A stretch of 64,000 nt of DNA. It comes from Neofusicoccum parvum. Taxonomy: Eukaryota > Ascomycota > Dothideomycetes > Botryosphaeriales > Botryosphaeriaceae. The stretch is taken from contig CP087207.1 in assembly GCA_020912385.1 (NCBI GenBank), positions 2,790,001 to 2,854,000 of the forward strand, given 5' to 3'. Both the position numbers and the translations under genes were made by a program. Under the pieces are notes generated by a model that ran no database searches, had not been told where the DNA came from, and saw only the letters and a list, made by a program, of their open reading frames with translations. Below, piece after piece: positions 39,699 to 56,594 of this stretch (position 1 is its first letter; each line of letters begins with the position of its first letter).

Positions 39699-40082
39699 GG
39701 AGAAAGAGCTAGCGTTGGACGGAGCCAAAGAGGATTTACATAGGGGGCGAAGGCGAGCCTCGCAGTTTCCGAAGCTCAGATCCCTTTCTCAGGGCTATTC
39801 AGTCACATTAAGCTCTAATAATTGGCAAGAGCACGGGCAGGCAAATATTTGTGTGGTGTTTGATACCCTCGCTTGGCTTCTTACGTTTTACGCTCATGGC
39901 TTTGCACGTGCTCGTGATCATTTCTGTCAGTGCTTGATGGGGTTGTCCGCACAAACTCGTATCCTGGGAAAATCGAGCTGTTATATTGAACTTTAGGCTA
40001 GGCTTGATAACTGACGGTCGCGCTTGATACCGTATCAGCAGCCAGTGGGTGCTACTATAAGCGAACTTCCCTCCCGCCCTCA

Positions 40083-46490: not shown

Positions 46491-47004
46491 TTAGAGCTTG
46501 CTGATGAAGACGCGGGCGCACATGCGGCGGACGTCCTGGGGGAGGAAGTACTTGGAGAGGAAGTAGACGAAGGTGGGGATGATGGCGAAGGCGAAGGTGG
46601 TCTCGTTGACCCAGAAGAAGGGGACGAGCTGGGGCATGCCGGCGTAGAGCATCGTCTGCTGTAGTGCCCCGAAGAAACAACCCGTTAGCAATCCATGCAA
46701 CCATCAATCAACCATCAATTGCTATCCTCCGAGGAAGACGGCCGCGGTTTGCATCGTGTCTCCAGCGTGAGGCTCGACGCAGGGCCGTGGCGGAAGTGCG
46801 GCCGGCCGTCGCAAGCAATTGCAGGCGGGGACGGGTGCTGCGTACCATCTTGGCGTCGGCCTTCTGGGCGACGGTGTACTTCTGGCCGTTGTACGAGGGC
46901 GTGAAGGGGGCGACCTTGGCGGCGGTGCGCATGCTCATGGGAGCAGCGAAGGCCTGGCGCTCGACGGCGCGGGCGAGGGGGCGGAAGAGGCGTGCGGAAG
47001 ACAT
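46491..47004 (-). CDS. ATP8: Nuclear-encoded mitochondrial ATP synthase subunit 8
   Basis: Subunit 8 of the F1Fo ATP synthase (peripheral stalk, inner membrane), normally encoded in mtDNA. Exon 1 (47004-46846) encodes 53 residues rich in Arg/Ala/Ser without acidic residues in its first 13 positions (MSSARLFRPLARA), a typical mitochondrial presequence. Exon 2 (46658-46491) encodes the mature protein: MPQLVPFFWVNETTF at residue 61, a membrane helix (AFAIIPTFVYFLSKYFLP), a basic tail and the diagnostic ending RVFISKL. The intron is 187 nt with a TAAC branch site and a tandem CAGCAG acceptor, so one Gln may be included or skipped. The total is about 108 aa against about 48-55 for mtDNA copies. 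This fits established reports that some Dothideomycete mtDNAs lack atp8. Confidence 0.87.
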
Positions 47005-50458: not shown

Positions 50459-53400
50459 ATGGACAGCTCCTCGCACAACTTCCTTCCGCAGCCTCCGCCG
50501 CTGGTCAATCAGCCGCCTCAGATCTTCGGCAGCTACAGCGCCGACGGCTCGCCCATCCAGGCCCAGCTGCCCGGCAATCTCTTCGACGATGGCCTGGGCT
50601 TGGGCCCGCAGGATGGCGGCGACGATGGGCAGGGTGACCCCAAGAGGAGGCGCATTGCAAGGGTACGCCGCGCGAGAGGACGCGCTGCCGCTGATTCTCC
50701 ATGCTAATGCTGCCTGCGTAGGCTTGTGACATGTGTCGCAAGAAGAAAATCAAGTGCGACGGCAAGATGCCTGCTTGCACCCACTGCACGAATTACAAGA
50801 CGGAATGCGTCTTTACACAGGTGGAGAAGAAGCGCCAGCCGCCGAAGGGGTGAGTCGCCCTGAGTCCAGGCACGCTCAACTCCGCTGACAATGAACTGCA
50901 GCGCGAAGTACATCGAAGGACTTGAGAACCGCCTCGGCCGCATGGAGAGCTTGCTCAGGCTGTCAGGGCTCCTCTCAGAGGATGATGACGGCCGGACAGA
51001 TTTGGGCACGCTAGAAAAGCGCCTCTCGGAGAAGCGTGCGAGTACCAATACCGGTGCGAACTCCTCGCGGACATCTATGGACGGTGGCTCTACACGGCAG
51101 CCCGAGGAAGACACGCCTTCGCAACGAGAAACTCCGCAGCAGGCTGGTGAGCTGCCGAGCCCGCACAGCCCTGCTACATCTCCGGCACCTTCCCGTAGAG
51201 AGAGGACCACCACCCAGGAGCCTACGAGGAACGAAGAAGAAGTCGAATCACTCTCCGATATGATGTGCTCCCTGGTAACCAACAACTGTGGCGAGACAAG
51301 ATACATTGGTAGGTGCATTCTTCAATTTCGTTGGTGCCTGGAGACTAACTGGCGCTTTTAGGGTCCTCGTCTGGTTTCTCCATTTTCTCGCCCAAGGGTA
51401 TTCAATGGGTCAACGACAAAACCGGCGATACGTCTTTCCAGGACATGATCACCAATGCCGCAGTTGACGACAACAAATGGATACATTGGAAGCCCGACAT
51501 CTTCCGCGACATATTCTCCCGCCGTGTATTCAAGCCGCTGCCACCCAAGGACGAGGCTCTTTCTCTCCTGAAGGACTACTTCGCAAACTTCAACTGCATG
51601 TTCCCGCTATTCCATGAGCCGACGTTCATGCACCTCGTCGACAAGCATTATTCGAGAGATCCGTACGAGGGCTCAGGATGGTGGGCAAGCTTGAACGTGG
51701 CATTAGCCATCGCTCACAGGCTTCGCGTCATGAGCAATTTGGTACCCCAAGAGGAAGACCAGAAGGCTTGGGGATACCTCAAGAATGCTCTTGCTGTGCA
51801 GACGGAGCTCACGATCCGCAACACCGATCTCTTGAGCGTCCAAGCTCTTCTTGGAATGGTAGGTGCTCTCGTGACAAATACCTAATCGATAAAGCTAATC
51901 AAAAGTAGGCCCTTTTCCTTCAAGGCACGCCAAACCCGCAGCCGTCATTCTTCCTTGTTGCAGCTGCCATTAGGCTGTCGCACAGCATTGGCCTCCACAA
52001 GCGGGGTTCGGGCTTCAACCTGAACCCGGCTGAAATTGAGCAACGAAAAAGAGTGTTCTGGATCGCTTACATGCTGGACAGAGAGTAAGTTTAGGCAACC
52101 ATATTTCTTTCTTGGCAGTACGTACCTAACGGGTGACAGCATCTGCCTTCGGTCTGGCCGTCCACCAATCCAAGATGACGACGACATGAATGTGGAATTA
52201 CCAAGCGAAAATCCTCCGGACAACATTGGCAACATCCCTCTTGCTGACGGCAAGAGCAAGGTCAACCTCTTCCGGCTCATGTGCACATTTGCTGTCATTG
52301 AGAGCAAGGTATACAAGCAGCTCTATTCCGTCAAGGCTTCCAAGCAGTCCGATGGCGAACTGCTTAACACGATCGGCGAGCTGGACCGAGAGCTTGAGGA
52401 ATGGAAAGACAGCATCCCGATTGATTTCCGGCCCGAGCACGAGATCAAAGCCTCCCACACACCGCTCATCTTGCATGTCGTTGTCCTCCACTTCGCTTAC
52501 TACAACTGCCTCACTACCATCCATCGAATGTCAGTCCATCACGGGTACTGGACCAGCAGACTTTCGAATTTTGCTATTCAGGGTCTGAACGCTAGGCCAC
52601 TAAACCCCAGAGTATTTTCGTCTGCGGCGTTGTGTGTTCAGGCAGCTCGTGCCTCGATCAACCTTATCAAGTATATTCCGCAGGGTGATTACGCTTGTGT
52701 CTGGTATAGCTCATTTGTCTTCCCTATTTTTCTCTCCCTTCAGGTGCTAATTTCTACCAGGCTAATCCTATACTATCCTGTCTCTTCGCTCGTGACCCTG
52801 TTCGCCAACATCCTCCAAAATCCCCAAGATACTCGCGCCAGGTCTGACCTCAAGCTGATGAATCTTGTGGTCAACTTCCTTTCCAACCTTTGCTCCGACG
52901 AAGAGAACGGCAGCGTTCGCCGCATGCTGAGCATTTGCTCCGAGTTTGAACGAATTGCAAGGGTTGTCTTGGAGAAGGCCGACAAAGAGTCGTCGTCTAA
53001 AAGGAAGAGACGGCAACAAGAAGATCAGACCCCTTCAAAGGATGGGCAGCAGCAGGCCGCTCAGATGCTCAATCAGGCGCAACAGCAGCAGCAACAAGCA
53101 CAAAGCCGGCGTTCATCGGCTATTGCGCCGGGTACTAATGGAAACGTTGGCGGAAACTTTGCACAATTCACGTCAAATTTTACAGATCCAGTGGGTACAT
53201 GCATTCGTTTTCTTCTCGGATGGTGGCTAACAGTGCGTCAATTAAAGGGCTTCAACTTTTCGCCTTCAATGCCACATGCATCTCTCCAGCAAGGCTCATG
53301 GCTGCCTGACCTCTCCTCACCGCAAACAGTCCCGGCTTTCCTACCACAACAGACCTTCCCACACTCGCAACCCGGAACAGATGCTCCAAACACTACAGCG

Positions 53401-53727
53401 GCTTTCTCCACTGCGCCCGGGGTTCAACCCACGACCGAAGGAGCAAACGGGCCTACTGCACTAAATGCCGGCCACTTGGCTGGGTTCGATATGGGCCACA
53501 CATTCTCACAACCGTTTGTTCCTCAGGACCTTTGGCAGATGCCGATGACACTTGAGTGGGATTGGGCAGATATGACTGGTTACGGTGGCATCGAGGATGG
53601 CATGGGAGGCATGAGCATGAGCGGAGTCATCAACAACATGAACGCTACCAATGGCCACACCCAAGATGTCCATGATGGAGAGCATCAGGGACAACATCAA
53701 AGACATGAATCGGTGCCGTCCTCGTGA
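50459..53727 (+). CDS. Zn2Cys6 fungal-specific transcription factor
   Basis: Nuclear sequence-specific regulator. Exons are 50459-50662, 50722-50849, 50902-51308, 51362-51858, 51909-52084, 52140-53190 and 53248-53727 (980 aa). The binuclear zinc cluster has Cys70, 73, 80, 87, 90 and 97 ([19 protein letters not shown]), and an intron falls exactly one codon before the first Cys. The linker [20 protein letters not shown] is a dimerisation coiled coil. The Fungal_trans middle homology region follows ([57 protein letters not shown]). The C terminus is Gln-rich and then Met/Gly/His-rich. The last intron (57 nt, GTGGGT...AAAG with GCTAAC branch) is a multiple of three and may be retained. Regulated genes are unknown. 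Confidence 0.88.
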
Positions 53728-55468: not shown

Positions 55469-56594
55469 TTAAATGGAAACCCTCGTGTCAACAATTTCGA
55501 CAAGTCCGTAGGCGGCTTCATTTCCGAGAACAGTTCCGGTTACCTCGACGAAGCCTTCGTACGCGATCTGCACCTCACCACAGAGCTCCTGGTCAGGCCT
55601 GATACTCTTGGCAACAAGCTTCTCGCCATTCTGGAACTCAAGCGTCCACGCAAGCGGATAGGTTTCGTTTGAGCAAGAGCTGTACCACGTAGTGCTGTAG
55701 TCCGGGCTGAGGGTATACGTAAGGACATGGGTGCCATCGGGCGTGCGGACACTCGCAAAACGTGAAGTGTTCTTGGGCTCCGTGTTCTCATCGATGGCCC
55801 AAATACTCGCCTTAATCAAGGGATCCTGGAAGTGCAACTCGAACCAGGTCCAGTTTCCAAGGGTGGGACTGCTGTCTTGCCACTGGCGGTCGTACCACGT
55901 GAACGAGTTGGTGGTGTCGAAGAGGACCTCAGTGCCATTCAGCGTGAGGGAGCCGTTTGTCTTGCCGGCCGGCATGCTCCACTGGTTGGCGGGAAGAGGA
56001 CCGAAGCTGAAGGTTCCGGTGCCACCGTTGTATATCACGACGGAGCTGGACTCCCAGGTGATGTCGTACGAGATTCCATCCGTCTGGCCGGTGGTGTGCA
56101 TCACGCTCACACTGTCAGATGATACTCCGTCGAAGGTGACGTGTTCGAAATCAAGAGCGAGCTTGGTGTCCATCGTGGTGTTTGGTGCTGTCACCGCAGT
56201 GGTAAATGCCCAATAGTTGTCGTCAGGCTCTGTGAGATCCAGGACCGAGAACCGAGTGATTGAAGTGTTGGTAGCAGTCCCGGAGTATTTTGACAGGAGA
56301 ACGTGTGATAAGATCAAGTATTGGTGTTCATTCGATCCCGTGACGTAGCTGCTCGTCCAGAAAGAACTGCCGAGTCCTTGAGCGAGCTGAGACTCGCTCA
56401 ACGAGTACTGAACTGGTAACGCGGACTTCGCAATATTGGTCAGAGGTTCAGGAGATAGGGTAGTTACATTTAGTCTCACTTACACTTTCGAACACGACCG
56501 CGTCATCCGCAACAAAACTCCATTCTCGTGAGGTAGCCTGTGCGACTCCGCAAACGAGGGCGACAGGGGCCCCAACGTTACGTATGAAGTGCAT
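55469..56594 (-). CDS. Secreted kievitone hydratase/AttH-like (CrtC lipocalin-like) protein
   Basis: Secreted protein of the AttH/CrtC lipocalin-like superfamily, which includes fungal kievitone hydratase, a phytoalexin-detoxifying enzyme; the exact reaction here is unknown. Exons are 56594-56484 and 56425-55469 (355 aa). The signal peptide (MHFIRNVGAPVALVCGVAQA) lies in exon 1, and the intron has GTAAGT and CTGACC signals. Family landmarks are FWTSSYVTGSNEHQYLILSH near the start, FTWYDRQWQDSSP and GNWTWFELHFQDP in the second barrel. Many N-glycosylation sequons fit secretion. A TATA box lies about 80 bp upstream. Confidence 0.75.

Follow-up and report, generated by a model that had tools for sequence, protein, structure and literature searches.

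A two-exon nuclear gene for ATP synthase subunit 8 in Neofusicoccum parvum, most likely derived from an old transfer common to many Dothideomycetes

The DNA analysed here (the window) is a 64,000-nucleotide stretch of Neofusicoccum parvum DNA and is part of contig 2 of a 44.0-Mb assembly of 18 contigs. A nuclear gene with two exons occupies 47004-46491 of its minus strand, and its product is fungal ATP synthase subunit 8. We hold with high confidence that this is a nuclear gene for the mitochondrial subunit, that it is spliced, that its product is imported, and that it stems from an old transfer shared with related fungi. A reading made from the letters alone (the sequence-only reading) had proposed that ATP8 is nuclear here, with an exon for a presequence ahead of a spliceosomal intron, and homology, gene structure and orthologues all agree with that proposal. 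Its claim that ATP8 had moved to the nucleus also stands, but its view of the move as a special event does not, as many Dothideomycetes have nuclear copies and a nuclear atp8 with a predicted targeting peptide was published in 2017. Since nuclear atp8 in Dothideomycetes is already published, the window gene is an ordinary example. The comparison with relatives nevertheless hints at two things: the transfer may be older than published; and a proline within the membrane helix may be an adaptation to import. In the open-licence literature we found no description of a nuclear atp8 in Botryosphaeriales, of the shared intron or of the helix proline.

Many fungi carry the gene for this small subunit in their mtDNA. 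According to the available part of a review, atp8 is among the mitochondrial genes that have rarely moved to the nucleus, with fewer than six transfers (PMC10809612). An old transfer with many descendants, with relatives that use an mtDNA copy and with a difference in the helix would offer a test of what the import of a membrane protein requires, and would bear on attempts at nuclear expression of mitochondrial genes.

Gene structure and identity of the product

The features of the gene are given in Table 1, and the coordinates that the sequence-only reading assigned to the gene and its intron hold. The full translation of exon 1 is MSSARLFRPLARAVERQAFAAPMSMRTAAKVAPFTPSYNGQKYTVAQKADAKM, and that of exon 2 consists of QTMLYAG and then the 48 residues of the subunit, MPQLVPFFWVNETTFAFAIIPTFVYFLSKYFLPQDVRRMCARVFISKL. 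The GC3 values of the exons (0.92 for exon 1, 0.98 for exon 2) contrast with AT-rich mtDNA. The GCTAAC motif was read from the tail of the intron, and may serve as its branch point. Depending on which acceptor is chosen, the intron ends at 46659 (Q54 present) or at 46656 (Q54 absent), and the predicted spliced product has 108 amino acids, or 107 if the second acceptor is used. The CAGCAG acceptor may therefore give rise to two forms of the protein, one with a Gln that the other lacks. The Lasiodiplodia hormozganensis protein has the acceptor Q and the L. theobromae protein is without it, the two being exactly one residue apart at this place.

Table 1. Features of the window gene (positions in the window)
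Feature	Position	Strand	Description
Start codon ATG	47004-47002	minus	
Exon 1	46846..47004	minus	159 nt, 53 codons; presumed mitochondrial presequence, opening MSSARLFRPLARAVERQ
Spliceosomal intron, phase 0	46659..46845	minus	187 nt, GTACGC...GCTAAC...CTACAG, GT-AG
Candidate branch-point sequence GCTAAC	46684..46689	minus	read from intron tail
Tandem acceptor CAGCAG	46656..46661	minus	products with or without Q54
Exon 2 including TAA	46491..46658	minus	168 nt: seven linker codons, ATP8 core, stop
ATP8 core, 48 residues, MPQLVPFFW...RVFISKL	46494..46637	minus	48/48 PF05933 positions; yeast Atp8 alignment
Pro81 codon (core position 21), within membrane helix	46575..46577	minus	counts across rows

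The earlier identification of exon 2 as ATP8 is borne out by a whole-length match to PF05933 and by likeness to yeast Atp8. The PF05933 model aligns with each of its 48 positions to residues 61-108 of the predicted spliced product (E 2.2e-18; 66.6 bits, cut-off 26.1), and to the exon 2 frame (window 46491-46655, minus strand) with E 3.6e-19. A search against PDB chain sequences returned three rows: yeast Atp8 at E 1.4e-8; a second ATP synthase protein 8 at E 5.9e-4; and an S-layer protein (E 0.9), which was taken as a chance match. Both the MPQLVPF opening and the FISKL end can be read directly in the product, and a single membrane helix was judged from hydropathy and from the alignment with yeast Atp8. 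The MPQLVPFFW opening noted in the sequence-only reading is indeed present, but at residue 61, seven codons into exon 2, rather than at the start of the exon, so that the exon boundary lies near, and not at, the old start codon. Full-length relatives of similar length and with a similar leader in Lasiodiplodia, Aplosporella and Phyllosticta exclude chance.

Exon 1 presumably encodes a mitochondrial presequence. The leader is basic, with nine K/R against two D/E over 53 residues, and amphipathic, with a best 18-residue helical moment of 0.66 (residues 5-22), and a comparable leader is found in Lasiodiplodia and other Dothideomycetes. When used as a query against its own genome, it matched only itself (E <= 1). 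No donor locus for a borrowed presequence thus appeared in this genome, within the limited sensitivity of a 53-residue query.

The PF05933 family has one match across the 44-Mb assembly (G000:C2:2836494-2836637). No tandem repeats were found between positions 40000 and 54000 of the window. A Pfam scan of 10 long frames of the window gave matches in two: a fungal transcription factor domain (PF04082) at 52036-53727 on the plus strand; and lipocalin-like/CrtC domains (PF17186, PF07143) at 55469-56479 on the minus strand.

Orthologues and the position of the intron

A search with the full-length product returned 15 proteins at E <= 0.01. The nearest complete orthologues are those of L. hormozganensis (93% identity) and L. 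theobromae (92%) over the whole length, followed by those of Aplosporella (70%) and Phyllosticta (66% and 62%). Going by these nearest orthologues, the window would belong to Botryosphaeriales. An ATP8 profile search gave 274 matches, and the counts below are drawn from the 120 listed together with rows of the other searches. The comparison set comprises 123 rows: 65 with a taxon name, mostly Pleosporales as judged by the names; 46 without one, treated as nuclear-type by likeness only; 11 of mtDNA type; and the window gene. Nine of the mtDNA-type rows came from the profile search, and the others are P0126 and yeast Atp8; ten of the 11 were picked by upstream composition and core signature. P0126 is the one mtDNA-type row among the five returned when the 48-residue core alone was searched against proteins, the other four being nuclear-type. 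Five further frames (P0008-P0012) have no core and were excluded from the core counts.

The predicted intron of the window gene lies at a boundary six to seven codons before the old start, as it appears to do in relatives. The frames P0008-P0012 are exon-1 frames of five relatives that have the KM|V donor boundary in common with the window and read VR from the donor on, and their likeness to the window fades over about 10 residues past the donor. Two exon-2 frames (P0006, P0007) agree with the window from LQ|QTMLYAG onwards, that is, from the same acceptor. Five frames appear to read through the intron: P0040, which is Ascochyta clinopodiicola by name, and P0049, P0071, P0105 and P0110, which have no taxon name. 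In each, M is the last residue before the presumed intron, a V codon opens it, and the frame leaves it at a Q that stands seven residues ahead of the old start Met. The leader of P0110 is Extremaceae-like, an assignment made by likeness to the Vermiconidia and Extremus rows (P0101, P0104). In P0072, P0088 and P0097, the presumed intron is entered after L and left at Q, at the identical place.

Among the matches listed, Q stands at position -7 relative to the old start in 34 of the 46 rows without a taxon name; the remaining 12 comprise five complete leaders, two later starts and five of other kinds. As a control, the rows with a taxon name (again among the matches listed) have Q at this position in 5/65 and M in 46/65, the M being what a spliced product would show, and Q occurs in one of the nine mtDNA-type rows with sufficient upstream sequence. 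We infer that each Q at -7 represents the CAG of the intron acceptor. Intron position in other Dothideomycetes, to which the sequence-only reading had pointed as a check, thus seems to converge on one codon boundary that recurs in several groups, and this boundary appears to be common to Botryosphaeriales, Pleosporales and others.

Helix proline, number of transfers and mtDNA copies

Proline occupies core position 21 in 64 of the 65 rows with a taxon name and in 41 of the 46 without, among the matches listed. It was seen in none of the 11 mtDNA-type rows and in neither of two further copies (0/13 in total), which come from the IMG/VR contigs L007 (32.8% GC) and L008 (28.4% GC). Both contigs carry atp8, and in L008 an ATP6 frame (E 5e-36) adjoins it. 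These contigs are filed as viral and look like fungal mtDNA, with homing-endonuclease-like frames recognised by eye.

The helix also tends to be less hydrophobic in the nuclear-type copies. Over core residues 13-31, the mean Kyte-Doolittle value is 1.53 for the rows with a taxon name (n=65) versus 2.00 for the mtDNA-type rows (n=11; Mann-Whitney p 6e-7, for rows that are not independent), and 1.70 versus 1.90 when position 21 is left out; the window gene scores 1.24. The groups overlap, L008 having 1.51 and L007 2.59. Hydrophobicity as the sole difference between nuclear and mtDNA copies was rejected, as the L008 copy beside atp6 falls within the nuclear range. Some nuclear-looking rows lack the proline at position 21, and their hydropathy values are 1.40 (P0086), 1.13 (P0107), 1.40 (P0108) and 1.55 (P0120); in P0109 (1.95) a proline stands one place further on, and P0123, another row with neither a taxon name nor the proline, scores 1.32.

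Because the rows are related by descent, the proline may reflect a single event. It could be a marker of the lineage, already present in the mtDNA copy of the ancestor and unrelated to import, and to this we give not quite an even chance. Descent alone would yield identical proline counts. Two observations argue against it: none of the 13 mtDNA-type copies has the proline, in a comparison that leaves the mtDNA copies of Zymoseptoria and Pseudocercospora outside; and a proline together with lower hydrophobicity is the kind of feature described for conservatively sorted proteins in the accessible text of PMC11452304.

The age of the transfer can be approached from the distribution of the copies. 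As given in the available part of PMC5626475, published in 2017, Stemphylium lycopersici has nuclear atp8 and atp9, both with predicted targeting peptides, the mtDNAs of Zasmidium and Zymoseptoria keep both genes, and the loss from mtDNA was suggested, in view of these mtDNA copies, to have followed the split between Dothideomycetidae and Pleosporomycetidae. Nuclear-type ATP8 is found here in Vermiconidia calcicola and Extremus antarcticus, which are Extremaceae (Mycosphaerellales, Dothideomycetidae) and so belong to the same order as Zymoseptoria. Further nuclear-type copies come, by name, from Venturiales, Trypetheliales, Phaeotrichales and Coniosporium. Should the common intron reflect common ancestry, the transfer would predate the split, and mtDNA copies would have been lost more than once. 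Most likely, the window gene goes back to one old transfer common to many Dothideomycetes.

A fuller scenario, which we put forward tentatively and would not favour as a whole, runs as follows: a single transfer before the split, with leader and intron; a long coexistence of nuclear and mtDNA copies; retention of the mtDNA copy in Mycosphaerellaceae and use of the nuclear one in Extremaceae and many others; and the gain, once the gene had become nuclear, of a helix proline that enabled passage through TIM23 and correct insertion from the matrix. If true, the helix proline would show the proline rule of conservative sorting at work in nature.

Several independent atp8 transfers within Dothideomycetes, such as a separate one for Extremaceae alone, seem to us less likely than a single one. 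They would be in line with the report, in the part of PMC5626475 at hand, of mtDNA atp8 in Mycosphaerellaceae, which share their order with Extremaceae, and with the distribution of a loose leader motif. This motif fits 56 of the 65 rows with a taxon name, among the matches listed, and the nine rows that miss it include both Extremaceae rows (P0101, P0104), three Trypetheliales-type rows (P0091, P0092, P0100) and two short models (P0077, P0078); a stricter motif fits 55/65, with P0104 fitting solely through an internal stretch. The leader is therefore a weaker guide to descent than the intron. Against separate transfers, the Extremaceae-like frame P0110 has the same intron place and the same helix proline.

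A few rows stand apart from this pattern. P0086 (Pyrenula ochraceoflavens by name, Eurotiomycetes) has a dothideomycete-like leader without the helix proline, and P0118 (Xylariaceae sp. FL0804 by name) has an Extremaceae-like leader with it; named from outside Dothideomycetes, both could represent contamination or separate transfers. P0107, P0108, P0109 and P0120, all without a taxon name, have long N-terminal parts and no proline at core position 21, and are possibly separate nuclear transfers.

The COX1 and ATP6 families, both markers of fungal mtDNA, gave no match in the 44-Mb assembly, and the mtDNA of the strain is therefore probably missing from it. For relatives, published accounts are mixed. 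In the accessible portion of PMC8451660, atp6 and atp9 are listed for Macrophomina phaseolina mtDNA and atp8 is not; a figure legend of the same paper nonetheless includes atp8 among 15 concatenated genes. A Shiraia bambusicola paper, in the part available, found atp8 and atp9 together only in M. graminicola and credited N. parvum with atp9 (PMC4366305); by implication, N. parvum mtDNA is without atp8, for an mtDNA built from a public contig of unverified assembly. A later Shiraia paper, in its available text, describes atp8 and atp9 as both relocated to the nucleus (PMC11881002). In the consulted sections of PMC7225605, atp8 is missing from 9/20 mtDNAs, and its tables place 10 Pleosporales and two Botryosphaeria among the 20; of these 12, one at the least and as many as three would thus have been counted as having mtDNA atp8. 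This count slightly lowers our confidence in the explanation we prefer and raises that in a dual state, in which a working nuclear gene and a retained mtDNA copy are both expressed.

We consider such a dual state improbable. The 9/20 count would allow Botryosphaeria to have atp8 in its mtDNA, and the part of PMC3420929 seen reports that ATP9 is distributed between nucleus and mtDNA in several ways; on the other hand, Macrophomina mtDNA, and by implication that of N. parvum, are reported without atp8 in the available text of PMC8451660 and PMC4366305. The genome analysed here offers a possible parallel for ATP9, a subunit with two membrane helices. A 118-residue frame (L005 1486-1842, minus strand; G000:C5:2188069-2188251) has a leader-like start followed by a subunit c match (PF00137), and is a probable nuclear ATP9. 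Since the mtDNA of two related Botryosphaeriales is reported to keep atp9, nuclear and mitochondrial copies of atp9 may coexist in this order, which would fit a dual state for atp8 as well. That the window gene is a NUMT or functionless pseudogene beside a working mtDNA atp8 is very improbable. The strain's mtDNA escaped the COX1 and ATP6 searches of the assembly, which makes an mtDNA copy conceivable; the open frame, the high GC3 of both exons, the leader, the intron and a protein that is conserved among orthologues while intron likeness fades all speak against this reading.

Import route and comparison with known systems

For the nuclear, spliced and imported ATP8 that we prefer, the following route can be proposed. 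The mRNA would be spliced, and a precursor of 107-108 amino acids made on cytosolic ribosomes. Its arginine-rich leader would take it through TOM and TIM23 and be removed in the matrix; the ATP8 helix would then enter the inner membrane from the matrix, probably via Oxa1, leaving the N-terminus in the intermembrane space and the basic C-terminus in the matrix. This is the topology given for ATP8 in the accessible part of PMC4505582. A precursor arrested in TIM23 should take the opposite orientation, and import via the matrix with insertion from there is therefore most likely, by analogy with nuclear-encoded Atp9, which is imported through the matrix and inserted from there according to the available text of PMC11452304. 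Passage through TIM23, as opposed to arrest there in the wrong orientation, may be helped by the proline in the helix and by its lower hydrophobicity. Recoded yeast Atp8 with a leader functions from the nucleus, as stated in the part of PMC3420929 at hand, and some defects remain in all such rescued strains according to an accessible section of a review (PMC10809612). Since yeast Atp8, which has no such proline, can be imported, the proline would be a refinement and not a requirement.

The closest known counterparts are the Lasiodiplodia ATP synthase protein 8 sequences (P0001, P0002), which have the same leader and ATP8 core as the window gene, with few residues differing, in a comparison of the proteins. 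Stemphylium lycopersici atp8 (TW65_04673, Pleosporales) is of the same kind, being nuclear, with a predicted mitochondrial N-terminal extension and with an mtDNA without atp8. It differs in its setting, as atp9 is also absent from Stemphylium mtDNA, whereas two Botryosphaeriales mtDNAs are reported with atp9; the available part of the Stemphylium paper (PMC5626475) mentions neither an intron nor a helix proline. Nuclear ATP9 of Podospora and other filamentous fungi is, like the gene described here, a nuclear-encoded membrane subunit of ATP synthase with a leader, and it is conservatively sorted (accessible text of PMC3420929 and PMC11452304). It is, however, a different subunit, for which two separate early transfers are reported in the same portion of PMC3420929. 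The mtDNA-encoded ATP8 of fungi (yeast Atp8; L008) has the same 48-residue core as the window gene but, unlike it, has no leader and no helix proline.
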